37,277 bases of DNA from contig NZ_CADCWS010000018.1 of assembly GCF_902806475.1 (NCBI RefSeq), forward strand, positions 1 through 37,277, given 5' to 3'. Below are positions 13,022 through 19,171 of the stretch, piece by piece. Source of the DNA: Candidatus Frankia nodulisporulans. Its GTDB lineage: Bacteria; Actinomycetota; Actinomycetes; Frankiales; Frankiaceae. The notes under the pieces were generated by a model that saw only the letters and a list, made by a program, of their open reading frames with translations, did no database searches and was not told the DNA's origin. The position numbers were made by a program, and so were the translations under genes. The first letter of the stretch is position 1. Each line of letters begins with the position of its first letter.

Positions 13022-13467
13022 TCCCCTGCCGCGCTGGCCCCTCGTGGCCAGATGGTGGGAGGCGGGCATCATGTCAATAAATTGGTACTTTCGCGGCTTA
13101 TCGGACGAGGGTGCTCCGTCCAAAGTGACGGTCGGTGTCCTGGCGGCCGCCGCCACGCGGATGCCCATCGTGGTGGTCCGGTTTCACCCTGTGGCCGCAG
13201 GCCGTTGGCGCAGGTGGCGGCGGGTGTCGTGACGCGCGCGGCTCGGGCCGGGGCGGGCGGACGCGTCAGCGTCGCAGGCGGCTCTGCCCGCCTCGGGGTC
13301 GTGACATCCGTCGCTTCGGATCTGGTACCCCCCGGGGGTAGTGGTGGACGATACGGGGGAGGGGTACTTTCGGCATGCCGGACGTGCCCGCCCGGGTGCT
13401 CCGCCCGGCGAGGACATCGCCCGCGGAGCACGCTGACCGAAGACCGAGAAAGGGATGAGGGTCGCCG
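13022..13467 (+). other. 446-bp intergenic region between hemB and copZ
   Basis: No convincing gene. It holds a small hairpin after hemB (CTGGCC-CCTCGT-GGCCAG, 13034-13051, no U-tract), a short AT-richer patch near 13075-13090, and the copper operator/promoter area at 13326-13370. A 27-codon ORF at 13375-13458 shows no regulatory-codon pattern. Confidence 0.6.
13326..13340. promoter_or_regulatory. CsoR-like copper operator upstream of copZA
   Basis: TACCCCC-C-GGGGGTA is a perfect inverted repeat. It matches the G/C-tract TAC...GTA pattern of actinobacterial CsoR operators. A second, imperfect TAC-flanked G-tract lies at 13352-13367 (ATACGGGGGAGGGGTAC). Just after it is TACTTT (13365-13370), a candidate -10. 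CsoR released by Cu(I) would derepress copZ-copA. No csoR gene is in the window, so the regulator would be encoded elsewhere. Confidence 0.65.
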
Positions 13468-13680
13468 ATGACCACCACTGCCTACACCGTGACCGGGATG
13501 AACTGCGGCCACTGCGTCCAGTCGGTGACCGAGGAGCTGGAGCGGCTGGCCTCGGTCTCGACCATCACGGTCGATCTGGCCGACGGTCGGGTCACCGTGG
13601 TCAGCGAGCAGGATCTGGCCGACGGGGACGTCCGCGCCGCGATCTCGGAGGCCGGGTTCGAACTCGTCGGGCGTGCCTGA
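13468..13680 (+). CDS. copZ: CopZ-like copper chaperone (HMA domain)
   Basis: A 70-residue protein made of a single heavy-metal-associated ferredoxin-like domain. [19 protein letters not shown] carries the metal-binding MxCxxC pair near residues 9-15, and VTVVSEQDL and [11 protein letters not shown] give the later strands. It would bind cytosolic Cu(I) and hand it to the ATPase encoded 2 nt downstream of its stop. The ATG follows GAGGG 7 nt upstream. Operon position behind a CsoR-like operator supports a copper role. Confidence 0.9.
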
Positions 13681-13682
13681 AC

Positions 13683-16274
13683 GTGCCCGCCACCGACTCC
13701 ACGCACCCTGACCGGGTGGAGCTCGCGATCGGCGGGATGACCTGCTCGTCCTGCGCGGCACGGGTGGAACGCAAGCTCAACCGGCTGGACGGCATCACCG
13801 CCACGGTCAACTACGCGACCGAGAAGGCCACCATCACCCGGGTCGCTCCCCCCCTGAGCACCGACCCCCTGAGCACCGGCACGGCGGCGGCCGATGGTCA
13901 GGCGGCCAGCGGTCAGACCGTCGGCACCGAGCCCACCAGCCTCGGACTGTCCGTCGACGATCTGATCGCGGCCGTGCGTGCCGCCGGTTACACGGCGACG
14001 GCCGCACCGGCGTTCTCACCGGCAGCCCCGACAGTCCCGACAGCGCAGCCCACGGCCGGCGCCCAGCCGGACAGCCCCGCTGCGGCTGAACCCGCCGGGC
14101 GGCCCGAGGCGGAACCCGGCGGCGCCGATCTGCGCCTGATGCGGCGCCGTCTGCTCGTCTCGGCGGTGCTGGCCGCGCCGGTGATCGCACTGGCGATGGT
14201 CCCAGCCTGGCAGTTCGACTACTGGCAGTGGGTCAGCCTGGCCCTGACGGTGCCGGTGGTAACCTGGGGGGCCTGGCCGTTCCACGCGGCGGCGGCCCGG
14301 GGTGCCCGGCACGGCGCGGCGACCATGGACACCCTGGTCTCCCTCGGCACGCTCGCGGCCTTCTGCTGGTCGCTCTACGCGCTGGTCTTCGGCGGCGCCG
14401 GCGATCCCGGGATGCGCCATGGCTTCTCGTTCACCGGCGGCCTGGGCGACATCGGCGCCCACCCCACCCCACCCGCCATGCCCGGTATGGACGACATGCC
14501 AGGCATGACGAACATGCCGGGGATGACACCGGCCGGTGGGGCCGCCGGCGGCACGGACGACGCGGCGATCTACCTCGAGGTGGCCGCCGGCGTCCCGGTG
14601 TTCCTGCTGGCCGGGCGGTTCCTGGAGCTGCGGGCCCGCCGGCGTTCGGGGGCGGCGCTGCGCGCCCTGCTGCACCTGGGCGCACGGGAGGTCACCATCC
14701 GCCGTCCCGCCGACGCGACGCGACCGCCCGCGCCCGCCGCGCCCGCCGTGTCGGCGGACCGTCCTCAGGACACGTTCGTCGAGGTCCGGGTGCCGATCGA
14801 GGAGCTGCGCATCGGCGCGGAGTTCGTCGTGCGACCCGGCGAGAAGATCGCGACCGACGGGGTCGTGGTCGAGGGGCGTTCCGCGGTCGACGCGAGCATG
14901 GTCACCGGGGAGTCGGTGCCGGTCGAGGTCGGGCCGCAGGACGCCGTCGTCGGCGCGACCGTGAACGCCGGCGGGCGGCTGGTGGTGCGGGCGACCCGGG
15001 TCGGCGCCGACACGCAGCTCGCGCGGATCGGGCAGTTGGTGGAGCAGGCCCAGAGCGGCAAGGCGAAGGTGCAACGGCTCGCCGACCGGGTCTCGGCCGT
15101 GTTCGTCCCGGTCGTGCTGGTGGCCTCCCTCATCACGCTGGTGGCGTGGCTGGTCGCCGGCGCGTCGACGACGGACGCGTTCACCGCGGCCGTGGCCGTA
15201 CTGATCATCGCGTGCCCGTGCGCGCTGGGCCTGGCCACACCGACCGCGCTGCTGGTCGGCACCGGACGCGGCGCGCAGCTGGGCATCGTCATCCGGGGAC
15301 CGGAGGTCCTCGAGTCGACCCGTCGCATCCAGGTGGTGCTGCTGGACAAGACCGGGACGCTCACCAGCGGCCGGATGCGGGTCACGGAGGTCCATCCGGC
15401 ACCGGGGGAGGATGCCGCCCAGGTGCTGCGGATCGCCGGAGCCGCCGAGGACGGCAGCGAGCATCCGATCGGTCGGGCGATCGCACGGGCCGCACGGGAC
15501 GCGCGGGCCGACGGCACGCTGCCGCCGGCGACCGAGTTCGCCGGGGACGCGGGCCTTGGCGTGCGCGCGGTGGTCGAGGGCCATCGGGTGGTCGTCGGCC
15601 GGGACAGCCTGTTCGGCGAGCTTCCCCCCGTGCTCGCCGGGGCTCTGGCGGGCGAGCGGGAGCTTGGCCGGACCGCCGTCGTCGTCGGCTGGGCCGGGCA
15701 GCCCCGCGGGCTGATCAGCGTCGCCGACACGGTGCGGCCCACCGCGGTCGCCGCGGTCGCCGATCTGCGCCGCCTCGGTCTGCGTCCGATCCTGCTGACC
15801 GGGGATTCGACGGCCGTCGCGCGGGCGGTGGCCACCGAGGTCGGCATCGCCGCCGGCGAGGTGATCTCCGAGGTGCTGCCCGAGGAGAAGGTCGCCGCGG
15901 TGCGCCAGCTCCAGCAGGACGGCCACACCGTCGCGATGGTCGGCGACGGGGTGAACGACGCGGCCGCGCTCGCCCAGGCCGATCTCGGCATCGCCATGGG
16001 CGGCGGGACGGACGCGGCGATCGAGGCCTCCGACCTCACCCTGGTGCACGGCGATCCACGGCTGATGGCCGACGCGATCCGGTTGTCCCGCGCCACCCTG
16101 CGCACGATCCGCGGCAACCTGATCTGGGCGTTCGGCTACAACGTCGCGGCTCTGCCGCTGGCCGCCGCCGGCCTGCTCAACCCGATGATCGCCGGCGCCG
16201 CGATGGCGTTCAGCTCGGTGTTCGTCGTGACCAACAGCCTGCGGCTGCGCCGCTTCCGCCCGACTCCGCCGTAG
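13683..16274 (+). CDS. copA: Copper-translocating P1B-type ATPase
   Basis: An 863-residue membrane pump exporting Cu(I) at the cost of ATP. An N-terminal HMA domain has GMTCSSC (Cys21, Cys24), followed by a long Ala/Pro linker of about 100 residues. Membrane segments start at about 155. The ion-path motif [10 protein letters not shown] lies near 510, the phosphorylation site DKTGTLTSG near 555, the nucleotide-domain HP motif [10 protein letters not shown] near 595, and [14 protein letters not shown] near 755. YN and MxxSS occur in the last two helices ([18 protein letters not shown]), the P1B-1 copper signature. Between two N-terminal membrane helices lies a Met-rich loop with repeated MPGM (about 265-284). 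The chosen GTG (13683) is 2 nt after copZ. No strong ribosome site is visible there, so translational coupling is likely. Confidence 0.93.
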
Positions 16275-16366: not shown

Positions 16367-17881
16367 TCAGGCCTTGGCCAGCTCCAGCCGGGGGAAGACC
16401 GGGGTGGGCTCGGCCACCTGGTCGCCGCCGTCGCCGCACTGGGCGGCGATGCGCGCGGCCGCCTCCGGGAGGAACGCGACCAGTCGCGTCGCGATCTCAC
16501 GGCAGGTGGCGACCAGTTCCGCGAGTACGGCGTCGAGGGCGGCGGGGGGCGCGTCCTGCTTGCGTTCGGCCTTCGCCAGCTCCCAGGGACGGGCCGCCTC
16601 GACGTAACGGTTGCCCTCGTCGCCGATCGCCGTGATCGCCTCGGCGGCCCGCCGGTAGTCGAACGCGGTGAAGGCGGCGTCGATCGCGGCGGGCGCGTCC
16701 GCGCGCGCCTTACGCAGGGCGGCCGCGCCCGGATTGTCCGCGGGGACCGGGGGGATCACCCCGTCCCGGTAGCGGCGGACCATCGACACCGTGCGGTTGA
16801 CCAGGTTGCCGATGTTGTTCGCGAGATCCTCGTTCGCCCGGTTGACCAGACGCTCGGTGGTGTAGTCGGTGTCGCCGCTGCGGGCCACGTCACTGAGCAT
16901 CCACCAGCGCAGCGCGTCGGAACCGTAGGCGGCGACGATGTCGGCCGGGTCCTCGGCGTTGCCGGCCGACTTGGAGATCTTCATCCCGTCGGCGGTCAGG
17001 TACTCGTGGACGAAGATGGTGTCCGGCAGCCGCACGCCCGCGGAGAGCAGCATCGCCGGCCAGTAGACGGCGTGGAAGCGGATGATGCCCTTGCCGATGA
17101 CATGCACCCGCGCGTCACTGCTCGTCCACCAGTGGTCGAAACTCGCCTCGTCCGTGCCGTAGCCGGGGGCGGTGATGTAGTTGCCGAGCGCGTCGAACCA
17201 GACGTAGATGACCTGGTCCGGGTCACCGGGTACGGGGATGCCCCAGCCACGGGCGCGGGTCATGCTCCGTGAGGCGCTGAAGTCCTCCAATCCCGCCTCG
17301 ATGAACGACAGCACCTCACGCTTACGGGTGGCGGGTTCGATGCGCAGCCGGTCGGTGGAGATGAGCTCGTGCAGCTGGTCGGCGTAGCGGCTGAGCCGGA
17401 AGAACCAGTTGCTCTCCTCGACCAGGTCCGGGACGGTGCCGTGCTCCGGGCAGCGCCCGTTGACCAGCTCGTCCTCGCCGTAGAACTGCTCGCAGCCGAC
17501 GCAGTACAGGCCCGCGTAGCTCTTGCGGTAGAAGTCGCCGGATTCGGCGCACGCCGCCCACAGCTTCTCCACCCCGGGCCGGTGCCGCGGGTCGGTGCTG
17601 GTCTTGATGAAGTCGTCGAAGGACAGGTCCAGCGGTTCGCGCAGCGAGATGAACCGGGCCGCCACCCGCTCGACGTACTCCACCGGGGTGATGCCCTCGG
17701 CCTCGGCGCTCTGGACGTTCTTCAGCGCGTTGTCGTCGGTGCCGGTCTGCAACCGGACCTCCTCGCCACGCGCCCGCAGGTGGCGAGCGTAGGCGTCGGT
17801 CTCGACCAGCTCCAGCGCGTGCCCCACGTGTGGTTTGCCGTTGACGTACGGGATGGCCGTCGTCACGAAGTAGCGACCCAT
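16367..17881 (-). CDS. metG: Methionyl-tRNA synthetase paralogue (class I)
   Basis: A 504-residue class I aminoacyl-tRNA synthetase that would charge tRNA with methionine. The signature HIGH motif is HVGH (residues 18-21) and KMSKS is KISKS near 300, within DGMKISKSAGN. A zinc-knuckle half CVGC lies near 127, with CPEHG about 20 residues later. WVDALTNY-like WFDALGNY and GKGIIRFHAVYWPA are typical MetRS elements. The usual TGTDEHG motif reads TGTDDNALKNV, which sets this protein apart from housekeeping MetRS such as M. tuberculosis Rv1007c and suggests a second, specialised copy. It ends without a C-terminal EMAP-like domain. The ATG at 17881 follows GGGAGG with an 11-nt gap. Its leader carries a Met-codon-rich reading frame and a strong hairpin (see 17913-18052). 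Function as a true MetRS is likely but not certain. Confidence 0.85.
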   Translation of the reverse strand: MGRYFVTTAIPYVNGKPHVGHALELVETDAYARHLRARGEEVRLQTGTDDNALKNVQSAEAEGITPVEYVERVAARFISLREPLDLSFDDFIKTSTDPRHRPGVEKLWAACAESGDFYRKSYAGLYCVGCEQFYGEDELVNGRCPEHGTVPDLVEESNWFFRLSRYADQLHELISTDRLRIEPATRKREVLSFIEAGLEDFSASRSMTRARGWGIPVPGDPDQVIYVWFDALGNYITAPGYGTDEASFDHWWTSSDARVHVIGKGIIRFHAVYWPAMLLSAGVRLPDTIFVHEYLTADGMKISKSAGNAEDPADIVAAYGSDALRWWMLSDVARSGDTDYTTERLVNRANEDLANNIGNLVNRTVSMVRRYRDGVIPPVPADNPGAAALRKARADAPAAIDAAFTAFDYRRAAEAITAIGDEGNRYVEAARPWELAKAERKQDAPPAALDAVLAELVATCREIATRLVAFLPEAAARIAAQCGDGGDQVAEPTPVFPRLELAKA

Positions 17882-17912
17882 CGGTTTCGGATCCTCCCGC
17901 CCCGCCGCGGCC

Positions 17913-17949
17913 CCACCCGAGGAGGCTCCGCCCGGGGCCTCCTCGGTGG
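17913..17949 (-). promoter_or_regulatory. Strong leader hairpin of metG (putative attenuator)
   Basis: On the minus strand the arms CCGAGGAGGC (17946-17937) and GCCTCCTCGG (17926-17917) pair perfectly over 10 bp. Three more pairs form beyond a one-base bulge (17949-17947 with 17915-17913), and the loop is 10 nt. It begins 4 nt after the stop codon of the Met-rich leader frame. The 3' arm contains CCTCC (17925-17921), complementary to GGAGG (17897-17893) of the metG ribosome site, so two mutually exclusive pairings can be drawn. No U-run follows, so translational control fits better than classic termination. Confidence 0.55.
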
Positions 17950-17953
17950 TCTG

Positions 17954-18040
17954 TCAGGACGCGCGCAAGAGGCCGGATGGCATGTGCATCAGCATCATCC
18001 GGCTGCTCGTCGCCTCGGCGTTGACCCGTGTCGTCGACAC
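17954..18040 (-). CDS. Putative Met-rich leader peptide upstream of metG
   Basis: A 28-codon frame starting with GTG at 18040 and ending with TGA at 17956-17954. Residues 15-20 read MMLMHM, four methionines in six, inside a short non-conserved-looking peptide. A -10 hexamer TAGGAT lies at 18052-18047, with 6 nt (CTGGCT) between it and the GTG. Transcription would therefore start at or next to the start codon, making a leaderless message. Actinobacteria translate leaderless genes well, and cysteine-rich leaderless leader peptides regulate sulfur genes in mycobacteria. An internal start at the first ATG (17998) would leave 14 residues. The position immediately before the hairpin and metG suggests a methionine-tRNA sensor. 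Expression is unproven; the coding call is inference. Confidence 0.5.
   Translation of the reverse strand: MSTTRVNAEATSSRMMLMHMPSGLLRAS
18028..18040. promoter_or_regulatory. 6-1-6 palindrome between metG leader and CDF exporter
   Basis: GTGTCG-T-CGACAC is a perfect inverted repeat that coincides with the presumed transcription start of the metG leader. It could be an operator for either divergent unit, or chance within the leader frame. Confidence 0.3.
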
Positions 18041-18046
18041 AGCCAG

Positions 18047-18052
18047 ATCCTA
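18047..18052 (-). promoter_or_regulatory. Candidate -10 of the metG leader transcript
   Basis: TAGGAT on the minus strand fits TANNNT well. No good -35 is visible at 16-18 nt. The GTG of the leader frame lies 7 nt downstream of the last T. Confidence 0.5.
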
Positions 18053-18136: not shown

Positions 18137-19171
18137 ATGGGACCAGCACCCACCCACAGTCATCCCCATGCCCGTTCTCATCCGGACGGGTCCACCCGAT
18201 GGTGGCCACGGCTGCGCCACCGGCTCTCGGATCTGTTCGGGAGCCATCTGTTCGGGAGCCACAGCCATGACAGCGCCGACCAGATCGACGACGCGCTCGA
18301 GGCGGACGCGGCCGGCCGGCGGGCGCTGCTGATCAGCCTCGGTGGTCTGGCGGTGACCGCGGTCGCGCAGGCGATCGCGGTGGTGCTGTCCGGATCGGTG
18401 GCGCTGCTCGGCGACACGCTGCACAACGTCGCCGACGCGCTCACCGCGGTACCACTGCTGATCGCGTTCACGGTGGCCCGCCGCCCGGCGACCGACCGTT
18501 TCACCTACGGCTACGGACGGGCCGAGGACCTCGCCGGCCTCGCCGTCCTGGCGATGATCACGCTGTCGAGCGGGGTCGCGGCCTACGCGGCGATCGACCG
18601 GCTGCTGCATCCCCAGCAGATCCATCAGCTCGGCGCGGTGGCGGCCGCCGGTCTGATCGGCTTCGTCGGCAACGAGATCGTGGCCCGCTACCGGATCGGG
18701 GTGGGACGCCGCATCGGATCGGCGGCGCTGGTCGCCGACGGCCTGCACGCCCGCACCGACGGGTTCACCAGCCTCGCGGTTCTGCTCGGCGCCGCCGGCG
18801 TGGCGGCCGGCTGGAGATGGGCCGATCCGGTGATCGGCCTGGTGATCACCGTGGCGATCCTCGGGGTGCTGCGTTCGGCCGCCCGTGTCGTCGGTGCCCG
18901 GCTCATGGACGCCGTCGACCCGGCGATCGTCGCCGAGGCCACCCACACCCTGCTGCACACCCCCGGCGTCGAGGCCATCCGCGAGCTGCGCATCCGCTGG
19001 ATCGGCCACAGCCTGCGCGCCGAGGTCGACGTCACCGTGGACGCCACCCTCACCCTGGCCGCCGCCCACGACGTCGCCCATGCCGCCCAGGCCCATCTGC
19101 TGCACCACATCCGCCGGCTGTCCGCGGCGACCATCCACACCAGCCCGCGAACAGCCGCTCCCGGACACTGA
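18137..19171 (+). CDS. Cation diffusion facilitator (CDF) family metal exporter
   Basis: A 344-residue membrane protein of the CDF family, which exports divalent metals such as Zn(II), Co(II) or Fe(II) in exchange for protons. The N-terminal cytosolic part has a His-rich stretch (HSHPHARSHPDG). Hydrophobic segments begin near residue 65. The transmembrane metal site is built from HNVAD (about 96-100) and HARTD (about 204-208); both are HxxxD, with His in the first position. The C-terminal cytosolic domain (about 255-335) has IRELRIRWIGHSL and AHAAQAHLLHHI, typical of the CDF dimer domain. Start ATG at 18137 has only a weak ribosome site. It diverges from metG. The exact metal cannot be read from sequence. 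Confidence 0.88.
   Translation: MGPAPTHSHPHARSHPDGSTRWWPRLRHRLSDLFGSHLFGSHSHDSADQIDDALEADAAGRRALLISLGGLAVTAVAQAIAVVLSGSVALLGDTLHNVADALTAVPLLIAFTVARRPATDRFTYGYGRAEDLAGLAVLAMITLSSGVAAYAAIDRLLHPQQIHQLGAVAAAGLIGFVGNEIVARYRIGVGRRIGSAALVADGLHARTDGFTSLAVLLGAAGVAAGWRWADPVIGLVITVAILGVLRSAARVVGARLMDAVDPAIVAEATHTLLHTPGVEAIRELRIRWIGHSLRAEVDVTVDATLTLAAAHDVAHAAQAHLLHHIRRLSAATIHTSPRTAAPGH

Follow-up and report, generated by a model that had tools for sequence, protein, structure and literature searches.

A candidate methionine-codon attenuator upstream of the methionyl-tRNA synthetase gene metG in Frankia and other actinobacteria

Introduction

Attenuators with a leader peptide have been described for many amino acids; on a methionyl-tRNA synthetase (MetRS) gene we found none in the literature searched. 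Here, we analyzed the leader of metG in a stretch of 37,277 nucleotides (nt) from Candidatus Frankia nodulisporulans (contig NZ_CADCWS010000018.1, positions 1 to 37,277; hereafter called the window). We propose, with a probability of about 0.8, that positions 17882-18052 on the minus strand act as a ribosome-mediated attenuator by which metG responds to the charging state of elongator tRNA-Met. Since a shortage of tRNA-Met also affects initiation, a methionine sensor that is read by ribosomes is not an obvious device.

Several described systems come close to this arrangement. Vecchione and Sello are said to have described, in 2010, ribosome-mediated transcriptional attenuation of an auxiliary antibiotic-resistant TrpRS in Streptomyces. 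There, as at our locus, a synthetase would stand under a leader peptide with cognate codons; the amino acid, however, is tryptophan and not methionine, and the Frankia MetRS is not auxiliary. Mycobacteria possess cysteine-rich leaderless leader peptides, which are likewise actinobacterial short open reading frames (ORFs) with a run of the cognate codon, but which concern cysteine and biosynthetic operons. The T-box (RF00230) serves the same purpose as the metG leader would, but it binds tRNA directly and involves no leader peptide.

In the accessible portion of one report, trpS and leuS attenuators are given for Streptomyces, no conserved hairpins for the cys leaders, and no conserved RNA structures upstream of methionine operons (PMC1262725). 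The accessible portion of a second report gives eight leader peptides for S. lividans, among them those of leuS, trpS, alaS and thrS as well as metL for metNIQ, and none for a MetRS gene (PMC8079986). The Streptomyces leuS, trpS, alaS and thrS attenuators share with the metG leader a short ORF with cognate codons that is followed by hairpins and precedes the synthetase gene, and the S. lividans leuS, trpS and thrS leaders are leaderless, as is predicted for that of Frankia metG; they differ in that the amino acid here is methionine and the gene metG. According to the same source, metL is also a leaderless leader peptide with Met codons, but it precedes the methionine-import gene metNIQ and the peptide is unrelated to that of the metG leader. 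The author of a preliminary description of the window had been aware of no described methionine attenuator of this kind in actinobacteria, a statement that the proposal of metL does not bear out. In the hisS family of Firmicutes, the available part of a third report describes T-boxes and His leader peptides exchanged between relatives and paralogues (PMC2965389). One synthetase family is thus read by either device, as seems to be the case here, with the difference that hisS concerns histidine and Firmicutes; the terms methionyl, metG and metS are absent from the main text of that report. No leader peptide for metG was found in the literature searched, which lay largely outside subscription papers. 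The kind of attenuator is known, and what would be new is the amino acid, methionine, the gene, metG, and a relay to the ribosome-binding site (RBS).

The metG leader of Frankia

The product of metG (16367..17881, minus strand; ATG at 17881) is a methionine--tRNA ligase of 504 amino acids (aa), which scored 435 bits against TIGR00398 and is thus over the curated cut-off of 336. Upstream on the same strand lies the -10 promoter element TAGGAT (18047..18052); the leader frame opens 6 nt further on, with GTG 18040. Transcription is predicted to start at or adjoining this GTG, so that the leader ORF would be leaderless and the ribosome would begin on a bare 5' end. The ORF (17954..18040) encodes VSTTRVNAEATSSRMMLMHMPSGLLRAS in 28 codons followed by TGA (17956-17954). 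Met is found at residues 15, 16, 18 and 20, within the run MMLMHM (residues 15-20; 17981..17998), which is the proposed stall site. Segment 2, GGCCTCTT (17967..17974), comprises Gly-Leu-Leu codons; able to pair with segment 3, it is a candidate antiterminator arm.

Four nucleotides past the stop, a 13-bp hairpin with one bulged G begins at 17949 (CCAC CGAGGAGGC ... GCCTCCTCG g GTGG). Its 5' arm holds segment 3, CCGAGGAGGCCCC (17934..17946), and its 3' arm segment 4, GGAGCCTCCTCGG (17917..17929), which contains CCTCC; counted over 12 bp, this hairpin 3:4 has an energy of -23.6 kcal/mol in the window. The motif CGGGGC (17899..17904), complementary to GCCCCG in segment 3, lies directly upstream of the metG RBS, GGGAGGATC (17890..17898), which contains GGAGG. 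All of these elements that the preliminary description had reported, namely the promoter box, the start, the 28-codon frame with its Met run, and the hairpin with CCTCC in one arm and GGAGG in the RBS, were recovered as given there.

We aligned the DNA upstream of metG from the window genome and from 12 relatives of the same genus, all of which hold metG (84-95% identity). Conservation across these 13 Frankia genomes has an abrupt edge, with none shared upstream of TAGGAT and a high level from TAGGAT onward, the element itself being kept in 13/13 leaders. The GTG leader ORF is present in all 13 genomes, and the indels within it are of 3 or 6 nt and hence in frame only; 1-nt indels occur past the leader stop. 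Each of the 13 has a Met run with 3 or 4 Met (RMMLMxM, RMMHM, RMMMRM or QMMMHM), and the peptide ends in PSGL[LF]RAS before the stop. Four RNA features are likewise kept in 13/13 leaders: the hairpin core GAGGC...GCCTC, the segment 4 core GGAGCCTC, GGCCT of segment 2, and GGGGC next to the RBS. GGCCT is also found in the other leaders of the same type as those of Frankia (SGL type), except in Umezawaea (GGTCT). Neither the 13-bp hairpin in its exact form nor the match of CCTCC to GGAGG is conserved across the 13 Frankia leaders; CCTCC occurs in 2/13, and the RBS reads GGGAGGA in 9/13 and GGAAGGA in 4/13.

Association of the leader with one MetRS type

In a further step, genomes holding this MetRS were scanned, one per species, which gave 80 named loci as the best of a longer list; four of them were Frankia loci already counted, leaving 76 others. 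Most actinobacterial loci among the 76 have a short ORF whose start lies 6-7 nt past TANNNT and which carries Met codons toward its end. The encoded peptides include MLRTCDSMTMRGRMMMFSGLLRMS in Crossiella, MITPSTQHRMMPPHRGC in Streptomyces, MRTFAAQEMMPRSRGR in Actinomadura, MTTRLVMMAP in Nonomuraea and MQPRRERMMRPFPGLLAVR in Actinoplanes; another is MNAQVMMAR. A strict detector (TANNNT, a gap of 6-7 nt, and an ATG or GTG ORF of 6-45 aa containing MM) matched 47 of the 76 non-Frankia loci. It matched 0/3040 dinucleotide shuffles of the same upstream regions, 0/4012 other 248-nt slices from the same loci, and 0/15 canonical-type metG genes of the class sample (L025 was excluded as it had no upstream DNA, and L030 offered only 160 nt); because the loci are related, these counts are not independent trials. 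By a looser rule, no leader was found at the 18 other MetRS genes in genomes holding the window-type MetRS, three of which came from genomes whose window-type gene is also without a leader (L066, L067 and L088). The canonical (0/15) and sister (0/18) genes thus indicate that the leader is tied to this MetRS lineage and not to MetRS genes generally.

With a laxer rule, the chance rate of which was not determined, something was found in 78/89 loci, a few of which (L115, L129 and L133) are doubtful. This set omitted eight loci, seven of them repeats of named loci and the eighth L152, which has a leader. The leader alignment comprised 65 of the 78, the remainder being of the Frankia type or doubtful. 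Moreover, in the class sample, a Met leader was present upstream of metG in 35/35 genomes with this MetRS, that is, in 13 Frankia, L017, L173 and 20 others. Among these 20, MM was found in 14, three Met without MM in one, and a single internal Met in five; one of the MM leaders (L136) fails the promoter rule, and seven of the 20 are contigs already among the named loci of the one-genome-per-species scan. These comparisons support the notion that a Met-rich, putatively leaderless ORF accompanies a single MetRS type in several actinobacterial families, as would be predicted of an attenuator sensing Met-tRNA. With a Met run in 13/13 Frankia leaders and MM in 47/76 distant loci, conservation of the Met codons in orthologous leaders, a check proposed with the preliminary description, was confirmed.

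The leader ORF could instead encode a conserved small protein with a function of its own, the hairpins being incidental. The in-frame indels and the conserved PSGL[LF]RAS C terminus in Frankia would fit this view. Across genera, however, the peptides share little besides Met codons (MITPSTQHRMMPPHRGC, MTTRLVMMAP, MNAQVMMAR), and their length goes down to 9 residues while the RNA segments persist, which makes a small protein extremely unlikely. Alternatively, the region could be a conserved promoter and 5' untranslated region without Met-dependent control, in which Met codons are incidental. That equilibrium folding gives no clear switch (see below) would agree with such a reading, but the pattern was present in 0/3040 shuffles and 0/18 sister MetRS genes, and a relative carries a T-box-like leader; we therefore regard this reading as very unlikely. 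Taken as a comparison of sequences, attenuation by Met codons is well supported.

Pairing of the RNA segments

Pairings were assessed with a swap test, in which matched arms were compared with arms exchanged between lineages in 20000 permutations; co-evolving segments should pair better when matched. For hairpin 3:4 with one leader per genus, the value of the matched arms was attained in 0/20000 permutations; within 13 SGL-type leaders (7 of them from Frankia), it was attained in 10/20000. The conservation of the hairpin, another check named in the preliminary description, was thus borne out for the core, which is kept in 13/13 Frankia leaders and covaries, and not for the exact 13-bp form.

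For the pairing of a further segment, segment 5, with the RBS in the non-Frankia types, 0/20000 permutations reached the matched value (54 leaders). This first test was made with 63 leaders thinned to 54 and contained a wrong hairpin or start in several rows (L075, L084, L107, L110, L124 and L125 among them). In a cleaned set, the faulty rows were dropped or re-assigned and 54 rows were thinned to 44, which gave 0/20000 with 44 leaders and 1/20000 with 26 leaders, about one per genus. The results for 3:4 and 5:RBS were the same after cleaning, and that for 4:5 was weaker. Since pairing 4:5 was reached by 53, 229 and 720 of 20000 permutations in the same three tests, it is only suggested. Changes of the RBS and its partner are directly visible: CGGAGCC pairs with GGYUCCG in Streptomyces and relatives, CGUCUCCC with GGGAGACG in Micromonospora and Actinoplanes relatives, and ACGUGUCC with GGACACGU in Haloactinopolyspora. 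On comparative grounds we consider as established the leaderless Met ORF, its link to the MetRS type, hairpin 3:4 and, outside the Frankia type, the pairing of a segment with the RBS. A covariance model (R1) was not used, as it retained just 4 base pairs, MAFFT having misaligned the hairpin types.

Downstream of segment 4, T accounted for 0.33 of the first 10 nt, compared to 0.15 elsewhere (n=66, Frankia type excluded); segment 4 was picked automatically in this count, as it had been for the uncleaned swap set, and part of the T excess may be segment 5 itself. T-tracts after 3:4 are visible in L115, L123, L129 and L130. The output of the leader seems to differ by group, with a pairing that would cover the RBS in most non-Frankia actinobacterial leaders and a putative terminator in alphaproteobacterial loci.

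The preliminary description had proposed another use of the hairpin, in which a ribosome at the stop opens it and the freed CCTCC covers GGAGG, while a ribosome stalled on Met leaves the RBS open. Both motifs are present in the window, the hairpin starts so close to the stop (4 nt past it) that its outer pairs would be hidden under a ribosome terminating there, and masking of the RBS through another segment is supported in relatives. However, CCTCC is found in 2/13 Frankia leaders and GGAGG is absent from 4/13, swap tests of segment 4 with the RBS were not significant, and folding predicted the reverse of the claim, with an RBS more open at the stop, in 8/12 folded Frankia leaders including that of the window. 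Masking by CCTCC is thus quite improbable; what stands of the Met-codon attenuator of the preliminary description is a putatively leaderless Met ORF that goes with this MetRS type.

A second version keeps the same sensor but has GCCCC of segment 3 pair with GGGGC by the RBS in the Frankia type, the resulting hairpin enclosing a 4:5 stem and making up the OFF state; control would be translational, and on stalling, hairpin 3:4 or 2:3 would prevent the OFF hairpin. The outer stem formed with a ribosome at the stop in 5/10 folded SGL-type leaders (L007, L009, L015, L059 and L063), GGGGC lies beside the RBS in 13/13 Frankia leaders, and matching changes are visible in L060, L061 and L063. Since the swap test was not significant (2905/20000) and the window's own fold at the stop has 3:4 instead, we regard this version as rather unlikely.

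Proposed switch and its folding with a ribosome

Under the favored reading, attenuation through hairpin 3:4, the leader probably raises MetRS output when charged tRNA-Met is scarce, in Frankia and in scattered other actinobacteria. We infer the following course for the stalling of the ribosome, for the switch to 2:3 and for the direction in which metG is regulated. With ample Met-tRNA, the ribosome would pass the Met run, reach the stop and cover segment 2, and an OFF fold built on 3:4 would result. With scarce Met-tRNA, it would stall on the Met codons, 14-33 nt before the center of segment 2, and leave this segment free. Free segment 2 would then capture segment 3 before segment 4 is made, giving an ON fold and more MetRS. 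In Frankia, the output might come about by early termination in the absence of a T-tract, or else by the hairpin GCCCC:GGGGC near the RBS.

We folded a set of 62 leaders with the ribosome modeled as a 13-nt footprint, either at the stop or stalled on Met; L012 was absent from this set owing to its differing start pattern, though it is part of the 13-genome Frankia alignment. Segment 3 was not found in 2/62 leaders. Segment 2 fell within the terminating ribosome in 58/60 leaders. This is the only informative count of its kind, since those of segment 2 outside the stalled ribosome and of segment 3 beyond the terminating one were built into the search windows. With the transcript ending at segment 3, segment 3 was paired with segment 2 at a value >0.5 in 60/60 stalled leaders; lacking a shuffled control and with few alternative partners available, this result was given no weight. 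In a comparison of 2:3 duplex energy with synonymous or shuffled tails, 4/42 non-Frankia leaders were below 0.05.

Several observations weigh against the favored reading. The whole leader of the window is not unusually stable (z -0.87 in minimum-energy folding). Equilibrium folding failed to show the switch: of the 62 leaders, 19 had a more open RBS when the ribosome was at the stop and 4 when it was stalled, and the 3:4 index on stalling was lower in 17/59 and higher in 3/59. Pairing 2:3, on which the switch would depend, gave a weak swap test (88/20000 with all 30 leaders, 598/20000 with one per genus) that was not significant within the Frankia (SGL) type or within the other actinobacterial types, and its duplex energy in Frankia was no better than that of synonymous recoding. 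No T-tract follows 3:4 in Frankia leaders, GTGGGGCCGCGG coming next in the window. The MetRS type itself is patchy, being present in 35/393 genomes of the class sample, 13 of which are Frankia, and no Met-rich ORF was found at 8/76 loci, five of them actinobacterial (L065, L066, L067, L069 and L088) and three from Thermomicrobia (L114, L120 and L126). Finally, methionine starvation slows initiation too, which could blunt a methionine sensor.

The RBS of the eight folded Frankia leaders with GGAGGA, including that of the window, had a predicted opening of 0.61-0.71 with a ribosome at the stop, compared to 0.18-0.36 when stalled. Of the four with GAAGGA, three barely changed and L016 was also more open at the stop. 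Equilibrium folding is a poor judge here, since the switch would be decided during transcription; these predictions lend no support to masking of the RBS by CCTCC and only a little to the favored model.

Sole or auxiliary MetRS

In 13/13 Frankia genomes, exactly one MetRS is over the TIGR00398 cut-off, and it is the metG studied here. The window genome is 86% complete, and its relatives agree in this result. Of a further 14 genomes, 12 contain two or three MetRS that pass the cut-off; in Crossiella (G058) and Actinorugispora (G071), no type but this one passes it. The preliminary description had called the window gene a paralogue, a term that does not suit Frankia and fits Streptomyces, Kutzneria and Nonomuraea. 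One Frankia genome (G010) holds a second, divergent MetRS-like protein (L174; G010:C1:3874000-3876600), which matches the Pfam family tRNA-synt_1g and, with 186.5 bits, stays below the TIGR00398 cut-off.

A broader interpretation seems possible, though we would put it somewhat short of even odds. It holds that this is an unnamed Met-tRNA-sensing attenuator, patchy but widespread in Actinomycetota, which sits on a distinct MetRS lineage and acts as an inducible backup switch in most hosts. The auxiliary MetRS would be switched on upon failure or inhibition of the housekeeping MetRS, and in Frankia, Crossiella and Actinorugispora the backup would have become the only MetRS over the cut-off, with the switch kept. 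Outside the Frankia type, a relay of pairings 1:2, 3:4 and 5:RBS versus 2:3 and 4:5 would pass the position of the ribosome to the RBS, and the leader would sense the starting amino acid of translation itself, which the leaderless start might make workable. If the switch works as proposed, it would explain how a host that has a pair of MetRS could turn on the second one upon a block of the first; it would also allow natural MetRS inhibitors to be reported directly, and the family would be large enough to study how a downstream ribosome site is informed of where a leaderless ribosome stands.

Other RNA devices and surroundings of metG

At gathering score, Rfam gave 0 matches, T-box RF00230 included, in the window and in 24 related loci. 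In a Thermomicrobiales metagenome-assembled genome (MAG; L114), a T-box-like match (2691-2948) replaces the leader ORF, covering the full model with 77.4 bits and an E value of 4e-17; this score is under the gathering score of 93. AUG is aligned there opposite what we take to be the consensus specifier triplet, as expected if this MetRS lineage answers to tRNA-Met charging. The RNA device of L114 would thus be of another kind and probably answer to the same signal.

Two alphaproteobacterial MAGs (L129 and L130) have, within about 250 nt upstream of metG, a Met-containing ORF, a hairpin and a T-tract in the same segment order. Their segments 2 and 3 (GGAAGCGG and CCGCUUCC) have quite different letters and are still complementary to each other, and the arrangement resembles a textbook terminator attenuator in other letters. 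A search for further alphaproteobacterial members returned the query genome only (1/76).

In three Kutzneria loci without the leader, a TAGCCT box precedes the start of metG by 6-7 nt, as would be the case with a leaderless metG. In Saccharothrix (L068), hairpin 3:4 is kept and the leader ORF has no Met-Met, possibly a decaying attenuator. In the Nocardiopsis genome that is the source of L135, one in-frame TGA was reported within the metG match (G307:C18:217186-218703).

In the window, metG lies between two metal-transport genes, both on the opposite strand: a convergent heavy-metal P-type ATPase gene (13455-16274, plus strand) and a divergent gene for a cation-diffusion-facilitator (CDF, cation-efflux) transporter (18137-19171, plus strand). 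Judged from this layout of convergent and divergent neighbors, metG would be the sole gene of its transcript.

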